Shown here one piece after another: positions 20,123-24,488 of a stretch of 64,000 nucleotides of DNA (its first letter is position 1; every line of letters starts with the position of its first letter). The notes beneath the pieces are model-generated. The model was not told the origin of the DNA. It made no database searches and worked only from the letters and a program-made list of their open reading frames with translations. Source of the DNA: Peptococcaceae bacterium (GTDB lineage Bacteria; Bacillota; Dehalobacteriia; UBA4068; UBA4997). The translations under genes and the position numbers were made by a program. The stretch covers positions 1 through 64,000 of the forward strand of contig JAAWKH010000002.1 of assembly GCA_022797295.1 (NCBI GenBank), in the 5' to 3' direction.

Positions 20123-21850
20123 CTATACTTTACTGGTATTGGTTATATCTTCGAGAATAGCAATTTTTTCGGCAATTTCCCGGCAAACGCCGCCTGCGTC
20201 GGAGCCGCCGCTTTGGCCGTCGGCAATGTAAACGGCGATTGACCAGCGGGGTTCGTCCGCCGGGAAAAAACCGGCAAACCACACGCCAAAGTTCTGGCTG
20301 GTGCCTGTTTTGCCGGCAATACTGATTAAATCACTGGCGGCCGGCTTGCCGGTGCCTTCTTGCACGGCTTGTACCAACCATTGCTTAACCTGGCGGGCGC
20401 TTGCCGCCTGCACCACTTGTTGCGGCTGTGCGCTGGGAATTTCACTCAGCACACGGCCTTTGTCATCCAGTACGGCTTGCACCAGGCGTGGCGTGGGAAG
20501 CTGGCCGTCATTGGCCACGGCGGCCAGCAGCCGGGCCAGCATAAGCGGCGTGGCGCGGATACCTTTTTCCCCGATAGACACGTTGGCCACGTCGGCCGGC
20601 ACGGCGGGGTTGAAGCTGAGCCGGCTGGTTGAATCATCCTGGCTGAGCTTAAAGCCGCTCAGAACTTGTTCGGTTAAACCCAGGCGGTAGGCGTATTCAC
20701 CAATCAGGCTGCCGCCTAAGCTTTGGCCCAGTTGGATGAAATAGGGGTTGCAGGAGTTTCCCAAGGCGCGGCCAATGTTCTCCTCGCCGTGGCCGTCGCT
20801 GTTCCAGCAGCCCACCTGGTGCCCGTTTGGCAGGGTGATACTGCCGCTGCAATTAAAAAGATTGCCGGTGTTGTCAATGCTGATGTTATGGTCCAGCGCG
20901 GCCAGGCACAGCACAATTTTGAACACAGAGGCCGGGGGATAATAGGAGAGGGCTTTGTTAACGTAAATATCGCCCTCAGTGGCCGGTTGGCCAATATATT
21001 GATTGTAGCCCGGGGCGCTCACCATGGCCAGCACATCGCCGGTTTTTACGTCCATCAGCACTGCTGCGCCGTTTTTATCTTGCATAGCGGCCTCGGCAAT
21101 GGCCTGATAGTTGTAATTGAGCGTTAGTTGTAGGTTAAAAGTCGGTTTGCCGTTGCCAGCTGCAATATAGCGCAGTCCTTCTGAGGCAGGCCGATTTTTT
21201 TCGTCTACTGTTATGGCGATGTGGGCGCTGGTTTGTCCACGCAGTAAGGCGTCATATTGTTTTTCCAGCCCGCTTTTGCCGATATAAGCGGTGTCTTGGT
21301 TGCCCTGCCTGGTTAAGGCTTCTGCCTCGGCGGTGTTGCTGCCGCCAACATAGCCTATTAGGTGGGCGGCCAGGCCGTCGGCGCCATAGCGCGGGCGGAT
21401 GATGGTGGCGTAAATACCGTTGGTTTTGGCTAAAACCGGTTGCAGCTCCTCCAGTTGGCGCAAACTTAAATTGCGAGCTAATATGAACGGCTGACCATCT
21501 GTCAGCTGTTGTTTTAATTGACTGGAAACGGTGGCGCTGGCTTGCAGTTGTTTGTTTTTTAACAGGGTGTTTAGATAAGTAACCCAGTAGGTTTCGCTGT
21601 TCTCTGGCAGTAAACGGGGAAAAACCAGCAGCACTCGCTCCGCCCGGTTGGTGAAGCTTTGTCCGTTGCAATCCAAAATATCCCCACGGCTGTATTCGCG
21701 CTCTTCCACGGCCAAAAGCCTTTGGCGCTGCACCTGGGCGGTGTAATCAGCGGCGTGGCTGTAATTAATTTGCAGCAGCCGGCCGGCTAACAAACCAAAA
21801 ATTAACAGCAACAATCGGGATATATTGCGATGGCGGCGCAGAGAAAGCAA
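20123..21850 (-). CDS. Class B penicillin-binding protein (transpeptidase)
   Basis: Membrane-anchored peptidoglycan transpeptidase of the FtsI/MrdA family. There is one N-terminal transmembrane helix, a dimerisation region, then the catalytic motifs ASVFK (near residue 308), SCN (near 366) and KTGTS (near 516). The TTG at 21850 is preceded by GAGGTGA at good spacing, giving 575 residues; a TTG at 21880 has no ribosome-binding site. It is third in a minus-strand set after lepB and the Xaa-Pro peptidase. Its Shine-Dalgarno lies inside the 3' arm of a 21-bp hairpin, so expression may be low or conditional. Whether it serves elongation, division or sporulation is undecided. Confidence 0.92.
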   Translation of the reverse strand: MLSLRRHRNISRLLLLIFGLLAGRLLQINYSHAADYTAQVQRQRLLAVEEREYSRGDILDCNGQSFTNRAERVLLVFPRLLPENSETYWVTYLNTLLKNKQLQASATVSSQLKQQLTDGQPFILARNLSLRQLEELQPVLAKTNGIYATIIRPRYGADGLAAHLIGYVGGSNTAEAEALTRQGNQDTAYIGKSGLEKQYDALLRGQTSAHIAITVDEKNRPASEGLRYIAAGNGKPTFNLQLTLNYNYQAIAEAAMQDKNGAAVLMDVKTGDVLAMVSAPGYNQYIGQPATEGDIYVNKALSYYPPASVFKIVLCLAALDHNISIDNTGNLFNCSGSITLPNGHQVGCWNSDGHGEENIGRALGNSCNPYFIQLGQSLGGSLIGEYAYRLGLTEQVLSGFKLSQDDSTSRLSFNPAVPADVANVSIGEKGIRATPLMLARLLAAVANDGQLPTPRLVQAVLDDKGRVLSEIPSAQPQQVVQAASARQVKQWLVQAVQEGTGKPAASDLISIAGKTGTSQNFGVWFAGFFPADEPRWSIAVYIADGQSGGSDAGGVCREIAEKIAILEDITNTSKV

Positions 21851-21946
21851 AAAAATCACCTCAAATATTTTTGGGAACAATTTAAGGCGGCGTTCAATTT
21901 TGAAAACGCAGTCTTAAACGCTAACAATATTTAAGGTGATTTTTTT
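21849..21946 (-). promoter_or_regulatory. 21-bp hairpin covering the PBP ribosome-binding site
   Basis: On the minus-strand RNA, 21926-21946 pairs with 21849-21869 over 21 positions with a single G-U, across a 56-nt loop. It begins 4 nt after the aminopeptidase stop. The 3' arm contains the GAGGTGA Shine-Dalgarno of the PBP gene and ends in seven U residues directly before the TTG start. It can act as an intrinsic terminator, an RBS-sequestering hairpin, or both. Confidence 0.75.
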
Positions 21947-21950
21947 AGTT

Positions 21951-23072
21951 TTATTTTATGCAGCATACGGCCAGATTTTTTGGAAAATTAGTTAGCGGCC
22001 GCAAGCCTTTTTCCGTAACCAGGCAGGAATCCTCAATGCGGACTCCAAAGCCGGCTTGGGGCAGATAAACGCCGGGCTCCACCGTCACGATTTGCCCTGG
22101 CTGGAGAATTTCCTGGCCGTCTTTGCGCAGATAAGGGGCTTCGTGTACATTAAGACCCACGCCGTGGCCTAGCGAGTGAGAAAAATATTCGCCCAAACCG
22201 CCAGCTTCAATTATATCACGGGCGATTTTGTCTGCCTGGTGGCAGGTCATCCCCGGTTTGATTTGCTCTAAAGCGGCAGCCTGAGCCTTTTGTACTAGCC
22301 GATAGGCATCCGCTTGCTCCGGCTGCGGTTGGCCGACAATAAAGGTGCGGGTGCAATCGCCGCAATAATTTAGGTAGGTTGCGCCAAAATCCAGGGTTAC
22401 AAAATCACCGTTTTGCAGGCGATAATCAGAGGGGATGGCGTGCGGCTTGGCGCTGTTAGGGCCGGCTGCTGCGATGGTTGGAAAAGCCAAACCTTGGCCG
22501 CCGTTTTCATGCATAGCCTGTTCCAAAGCCCAGGCCAGCTCTCGCTCGGATATGCCAGGGGCAATTAACGACTGAATATCAATCAGCGCCTTGTCCGCAA
22601 TTTCTCCGCATTTTTCCAGGGCTAGGCACTCGATAGAATCCTTGTTGAGACGGGGCTGCAATGGCAGACTTCCGGCCTCCTGCATTTGGCAGGCGGGCGC
22701 GTTTTGGCTAAGCAATTCTGAAAAGCTGTGCCATTCGCTGTAGCTGAGGCAGGCGCCCTCAAAGCCTAGGTTGGCAAGCTGTTGCTCCGCACAAATTTGG
22801 CTGAGCAAGGCGGCGTGGCTTTGTCCTGGTTGCTTGCAGATAAACTCTGCCTGGGGAGCTTCGGCTTCAGCTTGGGCGATATAGCGTCCGTCGGAAAGCA
22901 GCCAGGTTTGGCGCAGGCCTACCAGCAGCAGACTATCATCGCCGGCAAAACCGGAATAATAAAAAATATTTTGCTTGTCGCTTAGTAATATAGCTTGCAG
23001 ATTTTGCGTCTGCAACAACTGACGTAGTTTTTGCAGGCGTTGTTGAAGTGGGCTGGGGATACAGCAATCCAT
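21951..23072 (-). CDS. Xaa-Pro aminopeptidase (M24B)
   Basis: A 373-residue cytosolic metallopeptidase that removes N-terminal residues before proline. The N-terminal creatinase-like domain is followed by the pita-bread domain with all five metal ligands visible: the two Asp in TLDFGATYLNYCGDCTR, His in SHSLGHGVGLNVHE, and the Glu residues in TVEPGVYLP and GVRIEDSCLV. The length and ligands match Bacillus YqhT/PepP. GAGGTG precedes the ATG. It lies 27 bp after lepB on the same strand, and a strong hairpin follows it. Confidence 0.95.
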   Translation of the reverse strand: MDCCIPSPLQQRLQKLRQLLQTQNLQAILLSDKQNIFYYSGFAGDDSLLLVGLRQTWLLSDGRYIAQAEAEAPQAEFICKQPGQSHAALLSQICAEQQLANLGFEGACLSYSEWHSFSELLSQNAPACQMQEAGSLPLQPRLNKDSIECLALEKCGEIADKALIDIQSLIAPGISERELAWALEQAMHENGGQGLAFPTIAAAGPNSAKPHAIPSDYRLQNGDFVTLDFGATYLNYCGDCTRTFIVGQPQPEQADAYRLVQKAQAAALEQIKPGMTCHQADKIARDIIEAGGLGEYFSHSLGHGVGLNVHEAPYLRKDGQEILQPGQIVTVEPGVYLPQAGFGVRIEDSCLVTEKGLRPLTNFPKNLAVCCIK

Positions 23073-23099
23073 CTTTACACCTCTTGTTTATTAAAGCAT

Positions 23100-24488
23100 T
23101 TATTCTATCATACCAAATGTGTTAAAGGGATAAATCCGCCATATGGCTTTGCCGGTGATGGTGGAAATTTTAATAAATGAAACGTCGCTGTCACGGCTAT
23201 CGTGACTGACTTGCCGATTATCACCCATTACAAAAACGGAATCGTCTGGCACCAAAGTATCCACAAAGCCGCCGGTGATTTGTCCGTCCAGATAGTCCTC
23301 ATTTAAGGGTAGGTTGTCAATATAAACCTGACCGTCGCTAATTTGCAGATGTTCGCCGGGCAGGCCGATAATTCGTTTTACATAATAAACTCCGTCTGCT
23401 TCACTGGGGGCCTGGAAAACCACAATATCACCGCGCTGCGGCGCGCCCCACAGATAAGGCAGGGGGGAGGTGATCACTTTGTCGTCCGGCTCCAGTGTGG
23501 GCTGCATAGAACTGCCGGAAACCTGCGTTGGCATCAGCACCCAAGTGCGGATAGACAGGGCCACCGCCAGAGCTAGCACAATGCAAATTAGATAGCTTTT
23601 CCAGCTGCTGCGCTTAGTTTTTGGCTCAGCTTCCGCCTCAAACTCTTCTGCGTCTTCTGTTGCCTGAGGTTCCTCTAGGTTGGCAGCTTCGTTTGCCTCT
23701 TCTGGATTATTTAGCTTTAAATAGGCGTGCTGTTTAGCCTCCCAAAAGTTGGCGTTGGCGTGGTTAGCATTGCGGCCTAGGTTTTCCGCTGCCGGTTGGG
23801 CGGCCTGGTCTGCTGTGGTTGCAGGCTCGTTTGGTTTTACTTCTGCGGCTGCATCTGTCGGTTGTTGCTCTGCCGCCGGTTTGGGTTCCGGCTCAGTGGG
23901 CAGCATCGGGGCCTCCAGCTCGCTAAGCTGAGGCAGAACTTCCTCAAAGCTCAGCGGGGGCAATTCTTCCTGTTCCTCTGGCGGAGCTTGCTCCAAGTGC
24001 TGGCGAATGGCTTGCAGACGAGTTTCCAGCTCCTGGCTGAGAGTCTGCTGTTTTTGCATAAAAAAATTGCTGTTCTGCCAGTTTTCCATCAGTCGCCGGA
24101 TGGTTTCCTGTTGATTTTGCACCGCGGCGGTGTCCTCTTCCAATCTGGAGTGCAGGCCTTTGATGTTGTTTAGCTGCTCATTGTAGGCGTGCAGAGTTTG
24201 TACGCTTTTTTGTTTGGCCAGGGCCAGTTCCAGCAGCGCGTTTTTGTTTTCCTCCTCCAACTCATTCAGCAGGGCTTTTTCGGCCTGTAGCTTTTGGCGG
24301 TTGGTTTCTTCTATATTAAGCGCTGCCGCCACCAGGGTTTGCTGGCGCTGCATTTGGCGGTTGAGGTGCTGGGTGTTGTTTTCCGTATCCTCCAGCAATT
24401 CCTTTAACTTTTGTTTATAAATGATGGTTTGCGTCAACTGCTCCTGAGCAGAGGATGGCTTGTTGACGTCTGGATGGAGATTGTTCAA
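23100..24488 (-). CDS. lepB: Signal peptidase I with a long coiled-coil N-terminal extension
   Basis: Cleaves signal peptides of exported proteins at the outer face of the membrane. The catalytic part is the last 173 residues: a transmembrane segment (LICIVLALAVALSI), SGSSMQPTL with nucleophile S327, YYVKRIIGLPGE with general base K371, and the GDNR box. It is preceded by about 290 residues: a Gln/Leu/Glu-rich region (about 20-165) that reads as coiled coil, then a Pro/Glu/Ala-rich linker. Gram-positive type I peptidases are normally under 200 residues. The TTG at 24488 follows AGGAGG; the longer frame to 24599 has no ribosome-binding site and overlaps the divergent rnhA promoter. Confidence 0.93.
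   Translation of the reverse strand: MNNLHPDVNKPSSAQEQLTQTIIYKQKLKELLEDTENNTQHLNRQMQRQQTLVAAALNIEETNRQKLQAEKALLNELEEENKNALLELALAKQKSVQTLHAYNEQLNNIKGLHSRLEEDTAAVQNQQETIRRLMENWQNSNFFMQKQQTLSQELETRLQAIRQHLEQAPPEEQEELPPLSFEEVLPQLSELEAPMLPTEPEPKPAAEQQPTDAAAEVKPNEPATTADQAAQPAAENLGRNANHANANFWEAKQHAYLKLNNPEEANEAANLEEPQATEDAEEFEAEAEPKTKRSSWKSYLICIVLALAVALSIRTWVLMPTQVSGSSMQPTLEPDDKVITSPLPYLWGAPQRGDIVVFQAPSEADGVYYVKRIIGLPGEHLQISDGQVYIDNLPLNEDYLDGQITGGFVDTLVPDDSVFVMGDNRQVSHDSRDSDVSFIKISTITGKAIWRIYPFNTFGMIE

Follow-up and report, generated by a model that had tools for sequence, protein, structure and literature searches.

A predicted sigma-G-type promoter across a hairpin that buries the Shine-Dalgarno sequence of a penicillin-binding protein gene from a spore-former related to Candidatus Avidehalobacter

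Described systems

A gene that is translated from one transcript and silent in a longer one is already known in principle, from gene e and I-TevI of phage T4 and from sigG of Bacillus subtilis. In T4 gene e (lysozyme) and I-TevI, the ribosome-binding site of the long early transcripts is covered by a stem. The DNA encoding the 5' strand of that stem contains a late promoter, and the late transcripts, which lack the strand, are translated (as described in portions of PMC3014915 and PMC2988022). For B. subtilis sigG, portions of PMC5942855 put forward a hairpin of 20 or more pairs that blocks translation of spoIIG read-through RNA and cannot form in RNA started at the forespore promoter of sigG itself; another, small hairpin there acts on sigG's own mRNA.

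The locus described here is the start of a class B penicillin-binding protein (PBP) gene in a 64,000-nucleotide stretch of bacterial DNA, called the window below. As in those accounts of T4 gene e and I-TevI, the predicted PBP promoter lies in the DNA encoding the 5' strand of the stem. The T4 arrangement is an experimentally demonstrated early/late switch of a phage, whereas the PBP arrangement is predicted and belongs to a bacterial sporulation gene; the PBP hairpin also has a U-tract suggesting termination, unlike the T4 stems as portrayed in the same portions. With sigG, so far as the cited portions describe it, the locus shares a hairpin of 20 or more pairs that is missing from the predicted own-promoter transcript; it differs in gene, in lineage, in having a sigma-G-type and not a sigma-F-type promoter, and in its terminator features. 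Among the best full-text matches in the open-access literature, judged by title and the start of the abstract, none described such a device for PBP or dacF genes, or a sporulation promoter located within a terminator. Thus, the PBP gene as a site of the device, its conservation, and the overlap of promoter, terminator and translation lock look new.

The host and the gene order

The assembly behind the window comprises 1.9 Mb in 48 contigs. By PBP identity the closest named record is a Bacillota MAG (88%); Candidatus Avidehalobacter gallistercoris is among the other named records (58%). The genome encodes a sigma-G homologue (431 bits, below the cut-off of 457), and SASP genes, the standard sigma-G targets, occur in 40 of the class's 43 genomes, the window's among them. 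Judged by this gene content the organisms are spore-formers, and the host is a spore-forming relative of Candidatus Avidehalobacter.

On the minus strand, signal peptidase I is followed by an M24 aminopeptidase (21951..23072, by Pfam; a possible source of read-through), the hairpin, and the class B PBP (20123..21850, TTG start codon at 21850-21848). The gene context given in the earlier note stands: the aminopeptidase stop codon lies directly upstream (TAA, 21953-21951), and the downstream product, described there as a cell-wall transpeptidase, has the dimerisation and transpeptidase domains of a PBP. The genome encodes three PBP_dimer proteins; one of the other two is encoded ahead of MinD-like and RodA-like genes, which makes the PBP of the window an additional class B PBP. 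Matches to it at E<=1e-20, a threshold that admits any class B PBP, were found in 101 of 101 genomes, its own included, and at E<=1e-60 in 32 of the 43 genomes of the class. The gene upstream of PBP varies among families (recognised by eye outside the window). In three congeners, short sigma-factor matches (70-81 bits with the sigma-G model) lie just 3' of PBP on the same strand, at G002:C3:26045-26350, G004:C33:28715-29020 and G003:C202:6289-6594.

A hairpin over the ribosome-binding site

Sequence and fold agree on a minus-strand hairpin made of a 21-nt 5' arm (21926..21946), a 56-nt loop (21870..21925) and a 3' arm (21849..21869). The 21 pairs, one of them G-U, the loop length and the Shine-Dalgarno sequence (SD) GAGGTGA inside the 3' arm (21856..21862) are all as previously claimed. 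The seven U that end the arm (21849..21855) are also present, but they do not lie just before the TTG start codon, since the final two are its TT. The MFE of the transcribed (minus) strand, -36.6 kcal/mol, compares with a mean of -15.1 for shuffled sequences (z -7.9), and none of the 200 shuffles matched it; the plus strand folds at -37.6 (z -7.5). The stem is mostly A-U, with three G-C among its 21 pairs.

That the ribosome-binding site is hidden, another claim of the earlier note, is borne out by a computed SD opening cost of 19.3 kcal/mol, against a median of 2.9 over 262 gene starts of the same genome. Seven of these starts, the window's PBP among them, reach 8 kcal/mol. SD burial as a trait of forespore genes generally was considered and rejected: the SASP median is 3.8 kcal/mol, and 4 of 44 reach 8.

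The loop also contains the small stem GCGTT/AACGC, for which a role as a competing fold had been suggested. The stem is real; the regulatory role was rejected, as the stem comes from a palindromic repeat dispersed through the genome, one copy of which (21879..21918, minus strand; BLAST and pattern search) is inserted in the loop and absent from the same loop of the closest congener (L029). The repeat, TTTAAGGCGGCGTTT..AAACGCCGCCTTAAA, is often intergenic and occurs on contigs C5, C16, C17, C18, C20, C23 and others; BLAST finds six further places in the genome with E below 0.002, and its perfect palindromes number five, versus one for a reversed control pattern. For the whole hairpin, BLAST over both arms returned its own place and the reverse complement of it, and nothing elsewhere in the genome; a strict hairpin pattern, unable to match even the window's own long loop, gave 0 matches. 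In one congener (L032), the region separating the aminopeptidase gene from the PBP hairpin contains a long near-perfect inverted repeat, GCGGGTATTGATA..TATCAATGCCCGC.

Conservation of the buried SD

Fifty PBP orthologue loci (L028-L057 and L063-L082) were considered, with the start assignable by eye in 37. Left out of the orthologue counts were L053, L056, L063, L065, L067-L069, L071 and L078-L082; L031, almost identical to L030, is outside the set of 36 but inside the set of 35 used for opening costs, which omits L048 and L057 (no -10 assigned). L058-L062, named records duplicating genomes already counted, were excluded. The 263 or 262 control starts include PBP itself, except in the T-run count. 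Start codons, and the -10 positions used for opening costs, were set by eye, and the relatives are not independent.

Upstream structure with z <= -2 was found in 26 of 36 orthologues and in 15 of 119 controls (70 nt; 105 nt for the window). The SD opening cost is at least 6 kcal/mol in 24 of the 35 sequences and at least 8 in 20. The stem over the SD is kept in many relatives despite differing sequence: the paired arms read TCACCT/AGGTGA in the genus, CATCCT or CACCCT with GGGTGG in other families, and others elsewhere. Covariation in relatives, which the earlier note had proposed as a check, was found. In 14 alignable sequences, compensatory changes affect 4 of 9 pairs (16 cells), as many being reached in 0 of 500 shuffles; the count of pairs with double changes was matched by 6 of 500, and the number of further pair types is unremarkable (as high in 184 of 500). 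Paired cells make up 97.6%, a value biased upward because the 14 sequences were picked for folding alike, versus at most 58.7% when the arms are slid by 1-3 columns.

A near-perfect dyad that overlaps a predicted promoter, as this one does (see below), could also be a DNA operator, with a repressor binding the palindrome. The spacing between the arms is highly variable, however, and the compensatory changes in the arms keep complementarity to the SD, which is unexpected for a fixed operator; this reading is considered extremely improbable.

A predicted forespore promoter

A sigma-G-type promoter-like motif, absent from the earlier note, runs across the 5' arm: GCATA, 18 nt, CACCTTA. The predicted -35 element GCATA (21957..21961, minus strand) lies in the last aminopeptidase codons and aligns with G[CTA]ATA of relatives. 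The -10 element CACCTTA (21932..21938, minus strand), assigned by alignment and model, is the strand that pairs with the SD in read-through RNA. Six nucleotides usually separate the -10 element from the start; on that spacing, transcription would begin at about 21925 (21923..21927, minus strand). The aligned PBP upstreams share G[CTA]ATA, 17-18 nt, and CA[CT]NNTA.

Promoters were scored with a two-box model trained solely on SASP upstreams of the same class, which avoids circularity. In the window it matches GCATAA-17-CACCTTAA at 9.4 bits in a 130-nt scan; a 100-nt scan gives 2.7 bits, since the repeat inserted in the loop places the promoter beyond its reach. Scores of at least 8 bits were obtained for 27 of 36 PBP upstreams, compared with 33 of the 263 control starts and 9.2% of 720 shuffles (PBP versus control, Mann-Whitney p 5e-14, with relatives that are not independent). 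By eye, 23 of the 27 matches are at the aligned site, the best match lying elsewhere in L030, L046, L047 and L055; the promoter of L052 is at the aligned site but too close to the start codon to work as drawn. The top control match belongs to a GerW/YtfJ-like sporulation gene (113 bits, cut-off 116.3). Unsupervised models converge: GcATAa-N16/17-cAnAaTAg from SASP upstreams (38 of 44 upstreams after near-duplicate removal) and GtATAa-N15/17-ccAnncTA from the 36 PBP upstreams. A strict promoter pattern is found in 13 of 44 SASP upstreams, and in SASP upstreams of the window's own genus the motif is not clearly visible. Three relatives (L048, L053, L069) have neither a deeply buried SD nor a promoter of 8 bits; L053 and L069, scored afterwards, gave opening costs of 2.6 and 3.1 kcal/mol and promoters of 7.5 and 5.7 bits. 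The SD of L057 is buried at 15.6 kcal/mol; its best promoter score, 6.5 bits at a different place, is unconvincing.

Thirty sigG loci of the class were compared, 6 of them without a readable start. GG[CT]AATA was seen by eye in 16 of the 24 readable upstreams, mostly with GTATA about 15 nt upstream (L083-L111), and is not shared by the PBP -10 elements; the -35 elements of the two sets are alike. Since the sigG upstreams are sigma-F-like and the PBP upstreams are not, sigma-G is the preferred, not a proven, factor for PBP. Burial of the SD at the sigG loci (L083-L111) is shallow, with a highest opening cost of 7.4 kcal/mol. A sigma-A promoter for PBP was rejected, a simple sigma-70 (sigma-A) scan having found no site on the minus strand from 21850 to 23160.

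In intrinsic terminators that overlap an SD and in SD-hiding riboswitches, a single stem includes the SD, and U residues follow it. A terminator-like structure hiding the SD before a cell-wall gene is the usual look of a regulated leader, be it a riboswitch, a thermosensor or a protein-bound attenuator, and such a leader would sit on a PBP mRNA starting upstream of the hairpin. The empty sigma-70 scan and the forespore-type promoter inside the hairpin both speak against this, as do loop lengths from a few bases to 56 nt and the lack, among the 14 aligned sequences, of any conserved part resembling an aptamer. No Rfam family reached its gathering score in the window, the sole weak match being a microRNA family (28.3 bits versus a cut-off of 90), and a riboswitch was rejected on this ground. 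A regulated leader is therefore regarded as very unlikely; unlike SD-hiding riboswitches, the PBP locus has no aptamer that could be found, and control is proposed to act by the choice of start site and not by a ligand. The idea in the earlier note that the hairpin is a leader on PBP's own mRNA is not supported: with a promoter across the 5' arm, PBP's own transcript should start inside the hairpin, the very case named there as speaking against it.

Two predicted transcripts and a proposed read-through lock

The reading preferred here, which is judged likely, is a compact read-through lock for a forespore gene, in which a sigma-G-type promoter lies across the hairpin that holds the SD and the U-tract. 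A polymerase arriving from the upstream housekeeping gene would transcribe both arms, and the hairpin would then hide the PBP SD; hairpin and U-tract would probably end many of these read-through transcripts at the start codon. Read-through RNA with the whole hairpin should be untranslatable and is perhaps terminated, and PBP would accordingly stay silent in growing cells. A forespore polymerase starting near 21925 would make RNA without the 5' arm, leaving the SD readable. Identical bases would thus serve as the -10 element in DNA and as the anti-SD strand in read-through RNA.

Computed opening costs are consistent with these steps. In the window, the SD is predicted to lie within a stable stem of the longer transcript, and the promoter is placed so as to exclude the 5' strand. 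Across the relatives, the median cost drops from 9.1 kcal/mol when the RNA is read-through (35 sequences) to 1.9 when it starts at the promoter (31 computable); L032, L033, L052 and L074 have no promoter-started value, the assumed start being inside or past the SD. As the -10 box is in the 5' arm or the loop, the predicted start comes after the 5' arm. Where the loop is shortest (relatives L032-L034 and L043), transcription is assumed to begin at the first SD base or one base inside, so the true start may be 1-2 bases earlier. In the window's own promoter-started RNA, part of the SD is still paired, now with the inserted repeat (5.7 kcal/mol), and forespore translation may be damped as a result.

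Possible termination

A run of at least four T ahead of the start codon is present in 22 of 36 PBP orthologues versus 33 of 262 controls. Separate terminators were found in 1 of the 22 with a T run versus 9 of the 14 without (p 1.8e-4) in the region after the upstream stop codon, a limit chosen after a first count, admitting stems within the upstream coding sequence, had given 7 of 22 versus 10 of 14 (p 0.039); neither p corrects for relatedness. What appears to be conserved is protection from transcription arriving from upstream, whichever of the two means provides it. The few G-C pairs in the stem make its strength as a terminator uncertain, and a simple terminator scan, covering loops of 3-8, does not report the window's hairpin. 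Of the dual role first proposed, to terminate transcription and to hide the start, the hiding is upheld by opening cost and covariation; termination is suggested indirectly, by the U-tract and the near-exclusion of separate terminators.

The hairpin could be a plain intrinsic terminator of the upstream gene, overlapping the SD because the genome is compact, with a burial that has no function of its own. The near-exclusion suits this explanation, as termination is then probably part of what is under selection, and so does L036, in which the stem ends upstream of the SD and leaves it out of the terminator. However, the stem stays with PBP while the upstream gene differs among families, and the SD is buried even where the U-tract is weak (8.8 kcal/mol in L041, 9.1 in L055, 15.6 in L057 and 6.5 in L070). 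A plain terminator also leaves the internal promoter unexplained, and it is considered an unlikely account next to the read-through lock.

The PBP upstream of L036 (G003) has a strong G-C-rich terminator that itself holds promoter-like boxes, GCATAA-17-AAACCTAA (11.0 bits). With the SD outside the stem, it presents a promoter within a terminator without the translation lock.

A DacF-like gene and other loci

A promoter of at least 8 bits combined with an opening cost of at least 6 kcal/mol (also at least 10) and a fall of at least 5 is found at 2 of 262 gene starts (the window plus 240 kb of contig C1): PBP and a DacF-like D-Ala-D-Ala carboxypeptidase on contig C1 (L153:9185-10412, plus strand; opening cost 15.9 kcal/mol, promoter 8.8 bits). 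The latter sits behind the cluster of PBP, MinD-like and RodA-like genes and is predicted to have the same promoter-in-hairpin start. It is termed DacF-like because its orthologue lies 1-1.3 kb before a sigma-G/F-like sigma factor gene in several relatives, dacF being located before spoIIA. Among 30 orthologues examined, the SD is buried in 7 of 7 of the genus, the window's own included (9.4-15.9 kcal/mol), and the promoter model finds none in 2 of these 7; outside the genus the opening cost reaches 8 kcal/mol in 5 of 23. In the portions of PMC3789822 that treat it, dacF is sigma-G-controlled.

Two further gene starts were noted. The SD of a Gate-domain protein gene (L160:8020-8601, plus strand), which we take to be SpmA-like, is part of a stem (11.4 kcal/mol). 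The 5' arm of this stem includes CATATGCCTA, which may be the -10 box of a mother-cell sigma factor in a promoter-in-hairpin arrangement. For the gene of a 92-aa protein without a family match (L158:5670-5945, minus strand), a sequence complementary to the SD, TCACCTCC, precedes a TATAAT-like box, and the SD opening cost in read-through RNA is 17.8 kcal/mol.

Implications

A wider proposal, held tentatively and with less than even confidence, is that the PBP start is one instance of a reusable cassette of 40-100 bp in spore-forming Bacillota. In such a cassette one hairpin would act as terminator, translation lock and forespore promoter, and the -10 element would double as the anti-SD strand, so that the gene is readable only by the forespore polymerase. 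It may guard several spore-wall genes behind housekeeping genes, as suggested by PBP across families and beyond the class and by the DacF-like gene in the genus. The signature to scan for in other spore-formers would be a sporulation -10 box complementary to its own gene's SD. A terminator-like hairpin over a start codon may conceal a promoter and need not be a riboswitch. If the arrangement is true, promoter, terminator and ribosome-binding site are compressed into the same bases, and this would account for a spore-stage cell-wall enzyme being encoded directly behind a housekeeping gene and yet silent during growth.
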